Both the position numbers and the translations under genes were made by a program. Below are positions 12,663-60,177 of a stretch of DNA of 64,000 nucleotides, in pieces. The stretch is taken from positions 1-64,000 of the IMG/VR virus record IMGVR_UViG_3300027996_000026. One strand, given 5' to 3'. This stretch comes from a virus. Under the pieces are notes generated by a model that ran no database searches, was not told the origin of the DNA, and worked only from the letters and a program-made list of their open reading frames with translations. Position 1 is the first letter of the stretch. Each line of letters starts with the position of its first letter.

Positions 12663-13136
12663 TTAATCTTGATTATCTAATAAACTAGTTTGCATATCAA
12701 GCTGTACTGGAGCTGATATAATCATAGGAACTCATCATACATAGAAGATGAACATATCTGCTACTTTAACTGTAACATTCTCATAGTCTTCTAACATTTT
12801 CTTTATTCACTTGAATACAGATAATTGTAATCATACTCTTCATATAGCTACATAATCTGTTTTATTTGAATTAACATATCATTTGAATGCATCAAGTGGT
12901 GTTCCCTCTATTGCTTCATATAATGAGATCAACTCATTAATTTTTTCTGATATATTCTCTGGTTCTAATACTTCCAGTATAGGTAATGTATGTTCTTGCT
13001 TAATCATTGTATGATTATATATAATCCTTTCATTACCATAGAAAGCTATTCATGTATCCTTATTCTCTGCATATACTAGTTTTTTTCTACTAATATATAA
13101 ATCAAGGAACAGCGAGACCTCTTGTTTTAAATTCAT
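12663..13136 (-). CDS. Hypothetical protein (157 aa)
   Basis: It starts MNLKQEVSLFLDLYISRKKL and has a hydrophobic C-terminal strand region (VADMFIFYVGGVPMIISAP). It abuts the RusA-like gene with a 3-nt gap and is the first sizeable gene after the leader region at 13.4-13.9 kb. Family unknown. Confidence 0.65.
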
Positions 13137-13149
13137 AATTATCTGAATT

Positions 13150-13190
13150 AAAAATTAAAAATAAGTCATTTAAGACTTAGGTATAAGTCT
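13150..13190 (-). terminator. Terminator hairpins after the 58-aa ORF
   Basis: AAGTC/GACTT with a 6-nt loop (13163-13178) is followed on the minus strand by ATTTTTAATTTTT. A competing hairpin, AGACTTA/TAAGTCT (13173-13190), overlaps it, so two alternative structures are possible. Confidence 0.5.
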
Positions 13191-13217
13191 ATCTAATAAA
13201 TCTAATAAAGCAAAAGA

Positions 13218-13394
13218 TTATTTTAAATTTTGTAAATAACTTTCCTTATTTGTTTTTCTAATATAAAAAAAAGCTATAAATATTTTTATTCTATTCTGAA
13301 GATTTATAAGTGTATTTATTTGTAAGTCTATATTTTTTTCGTTTTTGTATTTTAGTTTATATAGATCTAGTAATCTTATTTGTAACATTGTCAT
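13218..13394 (-). CDS. Small basic protein (58 aa)
   Basis: The frame MTMLQIRLLDLYKLKYKNEK... ends YLQNLK before TAA. It contains no UGA or GGN glycine codon, so it reads identically in both codes. It is Lys/Leu/Ile-rich and helical. It lies between the leader region and a terminator, which supports a real short transcript, but a fortuitous AT-rich ORF is possible. Confidence 0.45.
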   Translation of the reverse strand: MTMLQIRLLDLYKLKYKNEKNIDLQINTLINLQNRIKIFIAFFYIRKTNKESYLQNLK

Positions 13395-13762
13395 ATTTTA
13401 CTATTTATTAATATAAATATTATAATGATTTATTTTAATGCATAATCCTGGCATTAGATATAATATTATTTTTATTAATTTAATTATATAAAAAATTATA
13501 TCATTGAAAGATTATATCCTATTTACTGCATTCCCTCTGTAATATAATATATAAGTAATATAGAAGATAACACTTCAATAAAATTCTGAAATATAAATTT
13601 CAGTTAAATATATTATCATACAGAGGAGCAATAGACAGTCATGATTTGTACATCATCGATGAGTTATAGAGCCTATCCTACTTATATTCCCCCCAGCTAA
13701 TTAAAGCTGCGTCGGTTATGATATGCATAAAGTAGTTGCCTACATATCCCAACTTGTATTGT
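13395..13762 (-). other. Non-coding structured leader region
   Basis: No gene-like frame is seen in this stretch. In the minus-strand sense it holds a helix near 13715-13755 (GATATG/CATATC extended by GTTGG/CCGAC), a small AGCT...AGCT hairpin followed by a G6 run, and a large imperfect inverted repeat at 13534-13626. The left part is plain AT-rich sequence. It follows the attenuator-like element and precedes the early operon. Confidence 0.5.
13534..13626. repeat. Inverted repeat enclosing a perfect inner hairpin
   Basis: Arms 13534-13552 and 13608-13626 pair at 17 of 19 positions, beginning CCTCTGTA and ending TACAGAGG. Inside, 13586-13603 is a perfect 7-bp hairpin, CTGAAAT/ATTTCAG. Both strands could fold. 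Confidence 0.65.
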
Positions 13763-13794
13763 AAAAAAAAACTACCGAACTATTAGTGGTAGTT
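13763..13794 (-). terminator. Strong intrinsic terminator of the leader RNA
   Basis: A 7-bp stem AACTACC/GGTAGTT with an 11-nt loop is followed on the minus strand by nine Ts (13763-13771). It is the best terminator in the region. Confidence 0.8.
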
Positions 13795-13852
13795 CAGTAG
13801 TCAATACTCGTGAGGTATGAATTACTCCGTACCACTAATACGAGTTTTATTT
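13763..13852 (-). ncRNA. Attenuator-like leader RNA / small RNA
   Basis: A promoter at 13859-13886 should start RNA near 13852. The RNA first forms a hairpin with ACTCGT/ACGAGT ends (13806-13845), then a strong terminator (AACTACC/GGTAGTT, 13770-13794) with nine Us. The 11-nt segment TATTAGTGGTA of the first hairpin is perfectly complementary to TACCACTAATA, which contains the 5' arm of the terminator. Pairing these would undo the terminator. This is the three-helix design of transcription attenuators; the ligand or trigger is unknown. It may also simply release a ~90-nt small RNA. Confidence 0.6.
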
Positions 13853-13858
13853 GAAAAC

Positions 13859-13886
13859 ATATTATTCATTTAATAATATATGTCAA
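13859..13886 (-). promoter_or_regulatory. Sigma70-type promoter of the leader/early operon
   Basis: A consensus TTGACA (13881-13886) lies 16 bp from TAATAT (13859-13864) on the minus strand, directly upstream of the structured leader and just past the stop of the acidic-repeat gene. Confidence 0.7.
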
Positions 13887-13895
13887 AACTTTTTT

Positions 13896-14375
13896 TTATT
13901 TTAATGAATCTAAATACATATTTACTGCATTTATTTTTAAATTATCATCTAATGATTCATATGTATATTGGTCATTAACCATAGCTTTAAACTGGATAGC
14001 TCTCATTAATAGTACTAATGATTCTCTTTCTATAATTATATCTTCATCTTCAGTATGTTTTAATTTATGACCATACAATTCTCATAATCTAGATTTTTGA
14101 TCAGATGTTAATTCTTCTGGAATTTCTGCAAGATATGCATCATAATCTAAACTAGATTCTTCTGATTCATCTGATTCATCTGATTCATCTGATTCATCTG
14201 ATTCATCTGATTCATCTGATTCATCTGATTCATCTGATTCATCTTCAACTATTGGATCTTCATTAAGTTCTTCTGAAGGTGCTTCATCAGCATCATCTAG
14301 TTCAGTTACTTTATTTTCTAATCAAGTTAATGATTTATCTAGTGTATCAATGTTCTCTTTTAAGTCTTCTCACAT
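13896..14375 (-). CDS. Acidic protein with (Asp-Glu-Ser)n repeat (159 aa)
   Basis: The centre consists of nine perfect copies of a 9-nt unit encoding an Asp-Glu-Ser repeat. The N-terminal third is acidic and the C-terminal third is a helical domain (RESLVLLMRAIQFKAMVNDQ). It is the last gene of the fibre block, transcribed after the giant fibre gene. Possibly a virion-assembly or fibre chaperone by position; function unknown. Confidence 0.7.
14164..14244. repeat. 9-bp tandem repeat, nine copies
   Basis: Nine perfect consecutive copies of GATTCATCT (plus-strand form) lie inside the acidic protein gene. Copy number is likely to vary by slippage without shifting the frame. Confidence 0.9.
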
Positions 14376-14395
14376 AATTTAATATGTTATAATAT

Positions 14396-14419
14396 AAAAA
14401 AGATTAATATAATTAATCT
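14396..14419 (-). terminator. Terminator after the giant fibre gene
   Basis: AGATTAAT/ATTAATCT (8 bp, 3-nt loop) is followed on the minus strand by a T-run. It separates the 1,972-aa fibre gene from the acidic-repeat gene. Confidence 0.6.
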
Positions 14420-14457
14420 AATAGCTAGTTTAATCATATTAATCATTTTGTAAAATT

Positions 14458-17400
14458 TTAGTTATCCATAACTACATTATTTAAATCAACTAATTTTTTT
14501 CATAATTGATCTAGTTTATCATAAGCTTTCTCAAACTTATCTCAACTAACTATATTAAGTAGTTCTTTAAATTCATCCATAACCTTTGTTTTCTCGGCTG
14601 TATCTATCTTATTTCATTCTTGAAGTAGTTTCATATCATCTGAAACTTTAAGTAGCTTAGAATCGAAATTTGATATGATTTGTTTTTCTAGATCTCATGA
14701 ATACTTATTTAATTGTTCTCATATAGATTTAGTTAATAATTCTACATCAACTTCTTTATATGTATCTATTTGATTTCTAATATAAATAATGTCATCTTTC
14801 AGAGGTGTCTTTGAAACATATCATTTTATTTCATCTAAATTCTTTAATAAATCTTTCTCATTTATTCAAGACTCTTTTTGTTGCTTAATATTTTCAATTC
14901 AAGTCTTAACTGTTTCTAGAACATCTTTCATTTTTGAAATTCATTTATCAAGATCATCTCATATATTTGTATATATTTCTGATCATACTTCTCAAGTATT
15001 AGAATTAATATCTTTTATTGATTCTTTAGATATAGCTTCTACTTTACCTATCATATATTCTAAAGCTGTATTTAATTCAACTATAGATATACCTCATGAT
15101 GATGATCATCAATTTCATCTTCACATCCATTGATCTTTATTCTCATAATTATCTAATGCTGTATGTAATTCAGATTCATCTAATCATCAGCTTCAGCCTT
15201 GTTGTAATTCATATCAAGCACTTCAATCATCTGTTATATATCCAGACACATCTTTTCCCCATACTGCTGCAGCATTTTCACTAGCTGTTGGTAAGTCTCC
15301 TATATCTCATGTTATTACATTAGCTCATGTTACAGTTGTTACAAATACATCTGCTTGCCATCTTATATCTATTCACCCTCATCAAGTTGTGACTCCACTA
15401 TTTTTAACTGGCCTAACTCAATCTTCTCTAAAAATACGGATTATATCTGTTTGCCATACATTAGTTGATGTAATGTTATCCCAGAATATATTTACTACTG
15501 TATTGTTAATTCTTAAATTTCAAGCATCTATTGCTGTAACTCATCCAAAGAATGCTGCAATTCATAGAGATGTCGTTGTATTATAGATAAACCAAGCATA
15601 TGCTTCTTTTGCTGTAAAGTTTACTGCTGACGATATATCTACTTCAGTATCTGTATAATCTGCTGTAAATTTAGTAATAGTTGAACCATCTAAAGCATAA
15701 GATATATATACAGTATCATCTGATTGACTATCTAAGAATGTTAATCAACCAGCTGTTACTATTCAAAGAGATTCTATTCATAGTTTTGCTGTAACACCAT
15801 TAGTATATGTTGCTCTTATTCTTATACTATCACCATCTTCTAAATCTAATCAACTTCATAGATTGTTTATATAACTGTATCAACTTCATCAACTTACTAT
15901 AGAATTATCTAATTCATTTGCTTGTGTTACATTATATAACTGTACTCTTGTTCAATCTATTAAGTTTGCATTACTTATGGTAACCGATACTGGTGGTTCA
16001 TATGTACTACCATTATCTGCTGTAAATAAATTAAAATCTGGATGAGGTGTCGTTCAATCACTTAATACAACTCTAACTCATTTTATAGGAGTTCATGTAG
16101 TTCAATCTATAACCCCATTAACTGTTTTAAATTTATTTCAACTAATCTGAACTAAATCATGCCAGTTGAAAGCATCTACTCATTGGAAAGTTCCACCTTG
16201 TCATATATTATATCTTAACCATCTCATTATCTCTTCTCATGTATGAGCTGTTGCTGAATCTGTAATAGTGATACCAAAGTCTTTTCAATTCCATGTTACT
16301 GGACTAGCTCAATGATCTGTGATAGTTAATCAAGTAACTGAAGGATCTCATGTCGTTAATCCATTACTACTAGGAGATAATCATATTACATATAATTGGT
16401 CTTCTAAAGTACCATATTGTCAATATACATCTTCTCTTACTTGGTCATATCAATCAGCTTGTATTTCTACTACTAGATGGTCTGTATAATCAAAGTTTCA
16501 ATGAGTCACATCTCAATACACTTGTATTAATTGGTCTATTTTATCTGTATTATTTGCATTAGTTGTTCATGTTCAATCTTGTTGTTGGAATCTTGATTGC
16601 TGATTGAAGGCTTCTCATACTGATTGTATAGCAGACCAAGTAGCAGTTGTTGTTCAACCATCTGTATACCTCAATCCATCTCTTGATAAGAAAGCTATAG
16701 AAGTATCTCAGTCTGACCATTCAACTCAATCAATGAAAGTAAATGAATTTGGTCAATTAGTTGTGATTGTAAAAGGTTTATTTGCTAAAGCTTCTCACTC
16801 ATCTCAAAGTGCTATCCATTGTTCTATCATATAAGAATAGAAATTTTGTACTGTAGACGCTGTAGTTAATTTAAACGACACTCAAGGTGTTGCAAATACA
16901 TTTGTATTAATAGTTAATCAACTAGATACTACATATGCTCTATCTCATAATTGAGAAATAGGAGTAGATGTTGAACCACTTTCTGATCCTGTTACCTCTA
17001 TTCATGTTACCCTTATAGGTAAATATCCAGCTTGCATTATTACATAATCTATTGTAATACTACCAGATACTTCTTCATTCCATGTTTCAGTTATTCAACT
17101 ACTTAATGTAGAAAACTTTTCTGTATCTGTTCAAGTTTCAAATACTTTAACAAAACTACCTGCAACTAATCAAGTGAAAGCTAATCATCTACTTATCACT
17201 ACTGGTACTGTATAATAAGTTCAGTCATCTGACATAAATCTACTAAAGTCAGCATGTGCTGTTGTTCAGTCTGATTGTACTACTCTTACTCATTTATTAG
17301 TTCATGTTCATAATATATCAATTCTTTGAGTCCTAAAGTCAGAACCATCATCAAAGACCATATCTGACCAATTAAATACATCTATAGAATCAAAGCTACC

Positions 17401-53443: not shown

Positions 53444-53719
53444 ATGAAAAATAAAGAATTGATAAAGTCAATTGCACATGATACATCTTTTTCTGAATCT
53501 ACTATTAATATAGTAATAAGAAGCTTAACTTCTAATATAACTAAGACTATAGCTTGATGAGATAAGGTTAGGTTAATTGATTTTTGAACATTTGATAGTG
53601 TACGTATTAAGTCAAGAAATTGAGTTAATCCATCTACTTGAGAAAAGATCGTAATACCAGAATTGAACAGAGTTAAGTTTAAACCATCTACTATTATTAA
53701 AAAATTATTAAATAAATAA
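53444..53719 (+). CDS. HU/IHF-family DNA-binding protein (91 aa)
   Basis: Full HU pattern: helical N-terminus, DKVRLIDFGTFDSVRIKSRN, then NPSTGEKIVIP and VKFKPSTIIKKLL. UGA stands exactly at the invariant Gly of GTF and TGE, proving the code. It is one of only two convincing plus-strand genes. HU/IHF pairs are frequent in crAss-like phages, where they may organise or package DNA. Confidence 0.95.
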
Positions 53720-53720
53720 T

Positions 53721-54041
53721 ATGGCAATAAAAAATGTAAGAACTGTAGCATATAAAACTCTTTCTGATAGATTAGCAAAACAACATTGATTAACTAAAGC
53801 ATTAGCTAGAACATTACTTGATTCATTTTTTCATGAAGTTGAATATGAATTACTGCAATGAAAAAATGTTGCTATTAAAAATATGTTTTCTTTGAAAACA
53901 AGAAAGATTAAATGAAAGGTTATGTTTAATACTAAGTTTAAAAAACATTTACCTATAGATGCTCATCGCTGATTTAGGTGTGTATTCTCTCCCAGTATAA
54001 TGGAAAGAATGAAAGTATATGATAGACAAAAAAAAGACTAG
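53721..54041 (+). CDS. Divergent HU/IHF-like protein (106 aa)
   Basis: It follows the first HU gene by one base. The helix-turn-helix dimer part (LAKQHGLTKALARTLLDSFF) and LLQGKNVAIKNMFSLKTRK are HU-like, but the arm is replaced by FKKHLPIDAHRGFRCVFSPS and the C-terminus is longer. It probably forms a heterodimer with its partner. It ends in TAG within the terminator. Confidence 0.8.
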
Positions 54042-56819: not shown

Positions 56820-56916
56820 TTATATGTATATATAGTTATTATATATATATATTATAATATTTTTATATATTCTAATATATATAGTATAATTATATATAAT
56901 AGTAATTAGGGCGAAA

Positions 56917-57016
56917 ATAAAGAGCTATTTTCTGAGTGGGAGATTAATAACAAAGGATTGTTATTATGGTATCTCTCATCAGATGACTAGCTCTTTATTG
57001 TTCTTGTTTTTTGATG
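56917..57016 (+). ncRNA. Possible structured small RNA (long hairpin plus U-rich end)
   Basis: Nested pairings: AAAGAGCTA/TAGCTCTTT (56919-56927 with 56988-56996), CTG/CAG, GGGAGAT/ATCTCTC and AATAACA/TGTTATT, giving one long stem of about 78 nt. It is followed by TTGTTCTTGTTTTTT. The immediately preceding DNA is A/T-only, which could include a promoter. Transcription is inferred. Confidence 0.45.
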
Positions 57017-57900: not shown

Positions 57901-58052
57901 AATAATTTAATTAATAATAAAATAGTTCAGAAGAATATTTTATATTGTGCATTTAAATGCGTTATAAGAGATTTAAATAGTAATGACTAATGTCTTATCC
58001 TATTATTATCTTCCGATTAAAATAGAGTTAGCTATCTATGATAGATAACGAA

Positions 58053-58076
58053 TTAGGCGAGGGCTGGCTTTGGGAT
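58053..58076 (+). repeat. 24-nt motif, copy 3
   Basis: It differs from copy 1 at a single position (C for T in the middle). It lies 5 nt upstream of the large inverted repeat. Confidence 0.8.
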
Positions 58077-58080
58077 ATTG

Positions 58081-58239
58081 TAATCTAATCAAATTAATTT
58101 AATTAGTTTTGAAATAGGATATACAATATAGTGACCTTGTTGTAACTACATTAAGTAATTACATTTCAACTTGTAGTTGGTAACGGGCAGTCACGATTGT
58201 ATATACTATGATAAACTAATTAAATTAATTTGATTAGAT
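58081..58239. repeat. Perfect 29-bp inverted repeat with nested stems
   Basis: Arms 58081-58109 and 58211-58239 are perfectly complementary over 29 bp. Inside, 58118-58135 and 58190-58206 pair again (ATATACAAT...GTGAC with GTCAC...ATTGTATAT), and an inner AACTACA/TGTAGTT stem closes the top. The whole can fold into one long rod on either strand. Confidence 0.85.
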
Positions 58240-58310
58240 TACTTGTTTGTACAGGCAGACTAGTACACCTAACAGGATATCAAGTATCAGTTAGATGCAG
58301 TAAGTAAAAA

Positions 58311-58345
58311 AAAAGAGTAAGACATTATAGTCTTACACTTTTTTT
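58311..58345. terminator. Bidirectional terminator
   Basis: GTAAGAC/GTCTTAC (58317-58336) is flanked by an A-run on the left and T7 on the right, so it works for both strands: the 39-aa gene on the minus strand and any plus-strand RNA from the structured region. Confidence 0.75.
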
Positions 58346-60074: not shown

Positions 60075-60170
60075 TTATTTCTTTGCTTTATTCAAGTCAG
60101 AATAATCAGCAACTAAAACATCTCCATAAGGAAATGTTAATGGCTTAGCCAGTCCAATAAACTAAGCCAT
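60075..60170 (-). pseudogene. Possible broken small ORF
   Basis: ATG GCT is followed by TAG, then an open frame reads FIGLAKPLTFPYGDVLVADY to TAA. The reading looks protein-like and codon use is good, but the start is cut by TAG and buried in a hairpin (60139-60171). It may be a remnant, or may start at a non-ATG codon. Confidence 0.3.
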
Positions 60171-60171
60171 T
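60139..60171. terminator. 10-bp perfect hairpin
   Basis: AATGGCTTAG/CTAAGCCATT with a 13-nt loop lies 7 nt after the stop of the 496-aa gene. There is no T-run on the minus strand, so it may be a processing or protective hairpin rather than a terminator. Confidence 0.45.
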
Positions 60172-60177
60172 GTTGTT

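Follow-up and report, generated by a model that had tools for sequence, protein, structure and literature searches.

A candidate three-structure transcription attenuator at the border between structural and replication genes of a code-25 phage

Attenuation in the E. coli trp and thr biosynthetic operons relies on three alternative hairpins, the last of which is an intrinsic terminator, and on a leader peptide bearing control codons. Immunity of phage P4 combines the CI RNA with termination in the leader ahead of the replication operon, where complementary segments are found, one of them exposed in a hairpin loop. The B. subtilis rplJL leader is described as an arrangement of anti-antiterminator, antiterminator and terminator (PMC4538822). 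On the mobile element Tn916, the strong intrinsic terminator T1, located near the end of the element and overcome by a processive antitermination element, would shield the replication genes of the element from neighbouring transcription (PMC11658703).

The locus described here, on the minus strand of a phage genome at the border between structural and replication/recombination genes, is best explained as a candidate cis-acting, three-structure transcription attenuator, a tentative reading to which we give a probability of roughly 45%. It shares the three alternative hairpins and terminal intrinsic terminator of the trp/thr type and, like E. coli trp, prefers the full-length terminator even with the first hairpin blocked. 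Unlike these systems, it has no leader peptide bearing control codons, it precedes a replication operon, and in its alternative pairing the 5' strand of hairpin 1 joins a segment that has the terminator loop at its centre. The three-structure layout is also that of the rplJL leader, although, compared with leaders of that type, the phage element has no recognised protein- or ligand-binding domain and no relatives were found. With P4 it has in common that the leader preceding the replication genes contains complementary segments, one of which a hairpin loop exposes, but the terminator here is intrinsic and neither a trans-acting RNA nor lysogeny is indicated. As with Tn916 T1, a strong intrinsic terminator would shield replication genes, although a processive antitermination element was not identified in the phage.

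The window, that is, the 64-kb stretch of DNA analysed here, comes from a virus record in IMG/VR that is 66,648 bases long and in which the large genes are open only if TGA encodes an amino acid. The UvsX gene has 13 TGA codons, and because its relatives carry glycine at these positions (168 of 249 aligned cells), the code is assigned from sequence to table 25, with TGA read as glycine; in four large genes, TGA stands against all GGN glycine codons at 345 to 96. Code 25 is in use in Gracilibacteria and Absconditabacteria, as well as in some phages of these bacteria (PMC10746230). Nearly all genes of the window lie on the minus strand. The feature, to which the first-pass annotation had assigned no strand, is for this reason described in minus-strand direction, running from 13886 to 13763; all of its confirmed parts lie on that strand. 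G-U pairs also give the element a better predicted fold on the minus strand (z -5.35) than on the plus strand (z -3.58). The plus strand, otherwise nearly unused, carries two adjoining genes for HU/IHF-like DNA-binding proteins (53444-53719 and 53721-54041). Upstream of gene starts, a GGA/GAG/AGG motif is missing in 58 of 59 minus-strand genes, and TTAA or TAAC peaks 13-15 nt before the start codon (31 matches at these three positions in 54 genes), possibly as a non-Shine-Dalgarno start signal. The features at and around the locus, in the order in which they would be transcribed, are as follows.

14375 to 13896, minus strand: upstream gene for an acidic protein of 159 aa with DES repeats, at the end of the structural gene array, with its stop at 13896
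13886 to 13859, minus strand: candidate promoter TTGACA-16-TAATAT, a 10/12 consensus match, with a predicted RNA start at about 13852
13860 to 13822, minus strand: possible 12-codon leader ORF MFSNKTRISGTE, a weak candidate from an ORF scan, with its stop codon in the hairpin-1 loop
13845 to 13806, minus strand: hairpin 1 (ACUCGU/ACGAGU, GGUA/UACC, GGA-GUAA-UUC), with the 5' internal bulge AUUAGU
13840 to 13781, minus strand: predicted alternative (antiterminator-like) hairpin of 22 bp, which includes AGUA/UACU and contains the 11 bp of the next two lines
13840 to 13830, minus strand: 5' half of the alternative pairing, TATTAGTGGTA = UAUUAGUGGUA, the exact complement of 13791-13781
13791 to 13781, minus strand: 3' half of the alternative pairing, TACCACTAATA = UACCACUAAUA, comprising the terminator loop and 2 bp on each side
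13802 to 13763, minus strand: intrinsic terminator, with a hairpin (13802-13770) of 13-bp stem and 7-nt loop and a T9 run at 13771-13763
13762 to 13137, minus strand: long, mostly non-coding leader between the terminator and the first confident early gene
13136 to 12663, minus strand: first confident downstream gene, 157 aa, no assigned function, with its start at 13136
12659 to 12111, minus strand: RusA-like Holliday junction resolvase (PHROG 1682, E 8e-29)
6728 to 4878, minus strand: Toprim/DnaB-type primase-helicase of the same gene array (Pfam DnaB_C 1e-18, Toprim_2 9e-6)

The strong intrinsic terminator named in the first-pass annotation is borne out, being the only terminator-like match in 13000-15000 (0.1 +/- 0.4 in shuffles) and having the most stable hairpin among the minus-strand terminator-like hairpins of the window. 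Ahead of it stands hairpin 1, a simple 40-nt hairpin of -10.8 kcal/mol when folded alone. The 91-nt RNA 13853-13763, which comprises both, has a predicted folding energy of -27.4 kcal/mol (z -4.3) that none of 200 shuffles equalled, and the segments 13825-13736 and 13855-13766 are in the top ~1% of a fold ranking of 2,130 minus-strand windows. The perfect complementarity that had been noted between a segment of this hairpin and the terminator is likewise present, over 11 nt (13840-13830 against 13791-13781). Complements to the terminator of at least 11 nt arise in 0.055% (0.00055) of shuffles of the 51 nt upstream, and the longest found at the nine other terminators of the window measure 5-8 nt. 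What had been called a consensus promoter fares less well, its 10/12 match being not above chance in AT-rich DNA (19 promoter-like sites in the 2-kb region, 19.6 expected). Since such sites are equally frequent in shuffled sequence, TTGACA-16-TAATAT is retained as a candidate promoter only, from which the leader would be transcribed.

The claim that the 11-bp pairing and the terminator are mutually exclusive is borne out only in part. The 11 bp occupy the whole 7-nt terminator loop (13789-13783) but merely the top 2 of the 13 stem pairs, and taken alone they do not exclude the terminator because its 11 basal stem pairs remain free and retain -12.0 kcal/mol. With AGUA/UACU and other pairs added to the 11 bp, 8 of the 13 bases in the 5' arm of the terminator are drawn into the alternative fold, which speaks against a view that the alternative pairing leaves this arm untouched. 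Dominant predicted states change with RNA length from hairpin 1 (nt 50-66) through the alternative hairpin (nt 70-78) to hairpin 1 together with the terminator (nt 80 on), the alternative hairpin reaching -18.0 kcal/mol at nt 74-78 (p 0.008 with the upstream part shuffled, and p 0.003 in the comparison of ten terminators below). As in an attenuator, an alternative hairpin is thus predicted to tie up the 5' side of the terminator stem while the 3' side is still to be transcribed, and an intrinsic terminator stands in the leader of the operon that would be regulated, linked to it by position only. In the nascent RNA, hairpin 1 would form first; at ~70-78 nt, 13840-13830 would pair with 13791-13781 and extend through shorter helices over those eight 5'-arm bases; and once the 3' arm emerges, the terminator and a re-formed hairpin 1 would be the most stable combination, stopping the polymerase at the T-run. 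The outcome would be set by kinetic competition: termination would be promoted by a factor stabilising hairpin 1, and read-through by one that keeps it open or slows the polymerase ahead of the 3' arm, with termination probably the default state. The analysis establishes the sequences, their complementarity and the predicted energies with their rarity, from which transcription off this promoter, kinetic competition, conditional read-through and any signal are inferred.

Whether the terminator yields when hairpin 1 is lost had been proposed as a refuting test, and at equilibrium it does not: with hairpin 1 blocked in silico, the full-length RNA still folds into the terminator with a probability of at least 0.99, and with the anti-antiterminator blocked the terminator leads the alternative by ~3 kcal/mol. 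The same handling of the E. coli trp leader, however, gives a lead of 4.7 kcal/mol (2:3 fold -15.6, terminator form -20.3), so that the terminator wins there too. In view of the trp result, this folding outcome is not counted as disproof of a switch. Since a proven attenuator also ends in its terminator, equilibrium folding cannot decide switching and kinetics must.

A constitutive intrinsic terminator, which would end a structural or short local transcript and insulate an early operon with its own downstream promoter, is the main rival, quite possible but somewhat less probable than the attenuator. Hairpin 1 would then be a structure stabilising the 3' end or the body of a phage small RNA of ~90 nt, and the 11-nt complement a product of chance or a tertiary (loop-bulge) contact. 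That the full-length RNA strongly favours the terminator in every state tested agrees with this, as does the existence of insulator terminators on mobile elements such as Tn916 T1 (PMC11658703). Intrinsic terminators also follow other genes of the phage, 40-60 nt past the stop codon, but the present one lies 94-125 nt past the upstream stop codon, with hairpin 1 in between. The first-pass annotation had placed the element before the replication/recombination genes, and RusA, an exonuclease, the DnaB/Toprim protein and an SbcC-like protein do lie in the early array downstream on the same strand; the first confident early-gene start (13136), however, is 627 nt from the T-run, which again suits a constitutive terminator. 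The intervening leader includes a long stem-loop (~13642-13519), a doubtful 58-aa ORF (13394-13218) and a stretch of raised G+C (13600-13760), and a separate early promoter downstream of the terminator is possible, an extended -10 match TGATATAAT at 13503-13495 being not above chance. On the other side of the locus, the gene for the 159-aa acidic protein contains a tandem 9-nt repeat (14155-14253) encoding Asp-Glu-Ser units.

Against a plain terminator stand the rarity of the upstream structures and the fact that it needs neither of them. At ten terminators of the window, the fold reached immediately ahead of 3'-arm synthesis was compared with upstream-shuffled controls. The terminator at 13771 alone combines a stable hairpin upstream (-11.8 kcal/mol, against -0.6 to -7.7 at the others) with a strong pre-terminator alternative (-18.0 kcal/mol, z -3.0, p 0.003), the two being jointly this stable in 0.1% (0.001) of shuffles. 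Because the feature was picked post hoc, from among about ten terminators in the 64 kb of the window, the effective significance is about 0.01-0.03. Since a plain terminator requires neither a stable upstream hairpin nor a complementary segment, an attenuator-like leader of three structures is the reading that the sequence favours over it. The three-helix attenuator first suggested for this locus accordingly keeps its anatomy, which stands out among the ten terminators, while its regulatory role is putative.

Three further explanations fit less well. An RNA acting in trans, as in P4, would be the freed terminator hairpin, whose loop CCACUAA pairs with UUAGUGG in new leaders and alters elongation. 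The complement is indeed centred on the terminator loop, in which a YUNR motif is present, and replication genes follow the element, but the complementarity seen is in cis only, lysogeny genes were not identified, and a second weak partner, ATTAGCTGG at 13701-13693, is within chance, all of which leaves this mechanism unlikely. Less probable still is ribosome-dependent, trp-like attenuation through the 12-codon peptide MFSNKTRISGTE, whose stop lies in the hairpin-1 loop. Its frame is open (13860-13822) and has TTAA at -13, like many starts of the phage, and early stalling of a ribosome would keep hairpin 1 from forming and so make the alternative pairing available. Such start motifs are AT-rich and readily matched by chance, however, MFSNKTRISGTE, the sole candidate for a trp-type leader peptide, lacks a run of repeated control codons, and its ATG, overlapping the proposed -10, would be missing from a transcript made from that promoter; lying upstream of the predicted RNA start, the ORF would need another promoter. 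Finally, that the inverted 11-bp copies are a pair of DNA-binding operators downstream of the promoter rather than RNA pairing segments is scarcely plausible, for although the window contains somewhat more one-mismatch copies than expected (7 against 2.1), at least four of the five other copies lie inside coding genes and the G-U pairs of the fold favour an RNA read from the minus strand. An operator shared with the promoter of the plus-strand HU gene (53703-53722) was also considered and dropped, the match overlapping an AT-rich gene end and being near chance.

Searches for known families and relatives bear on how the candidate attenuator is to be classified. Rfam, at gathering and relaxed thresholds, has no family that matches the element, in keeping with the first-pass view that no recognised riboswitch class is present, and a search for tRNA or tmRNA found none. 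The label 'riboswitch-like' finds no support past the alternative folds themselves: these Rfam searches returned no conserved ligand-binding aptamer and no ligand logic was found, and for want of a recognised aptamer the element is not filed as a riboswitch. The leader DNA gave short chance matches only against the phage collection and low-complexity matches only against 353 host-class genomes, in which a covariance model of the element retrieved generic terminators only. For an alignment in which covariation of the alternative structures could be judged, relatives were sought, but neither the element nor its flanking gene has one in IMG/VR, the phage collection or the 353 host-class genomes. 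In IMG/VR, searches with exact complementary-pair patterns led to an unrelated repeat region and to 13 unrelated places that lack a terminator tail and mostly resemble coding sequence. One unrelated viral contig (L030:2930-3110) carries several ACTACCACTAAA / TTTAGTGGTAGT repeat copies between genes. The helicase, the terminase, the 157-aa neighbour and a 354-aa protein have no relatives in IMG/VR, and searches with RusA and UvsX found distant relatives only. The host genomes yielded one helicase fragment (G140, 37%) and a distant 66-kb phage contig (G049) with a capsid-portal-terminase block, on which neither the neighbour gene nor the element has a relative.

Other structured DNA occurs in the window. 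At 57930-58345 (both strands), ~400 nt of non-coding sequence adjoin a bidirectional terminator and contain a perfect 30-nt inverted repeat (58080-58109 / 58213-58242) around nested stems. The predicted fold (-120 kcal/mol, z -9.7) is statistically stronger than that of the attenuator candidate, neither Rfam nor phage matches were found, and the region may be a large structured element, of either RNA or DNA. Two structured intergenic segments lie on the minus strand at 56906-56995 (-28.6 kcal/mol, z -7.1) and 60086-60175 (-29.5 kcal/mol, z -6.2).

The attenuator candidate would work like a known kind of regulator, a transcription attenuator, and it is doubtful that it represents a new class of early-gene attenuator of phages infecting candidate-phyla bacteria with code 25, with a loop-centred 11-bp pairing protected by a 40-nt hairpin, responsive to a signal and gating replication genes. 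No description of RNA-level gene control in phages of Gracilibacteria or Absconditabacteria was found in the literature. If it is merely a terminator, the element still marks the border between structural and early operons and aids the annotation of such genomes. The hosts, Gracilibacteria and Absconditabacteria, are largely uncultured, and a cis-acting RNA switch before the replication genes, if true, would be testable host-free in vitro.
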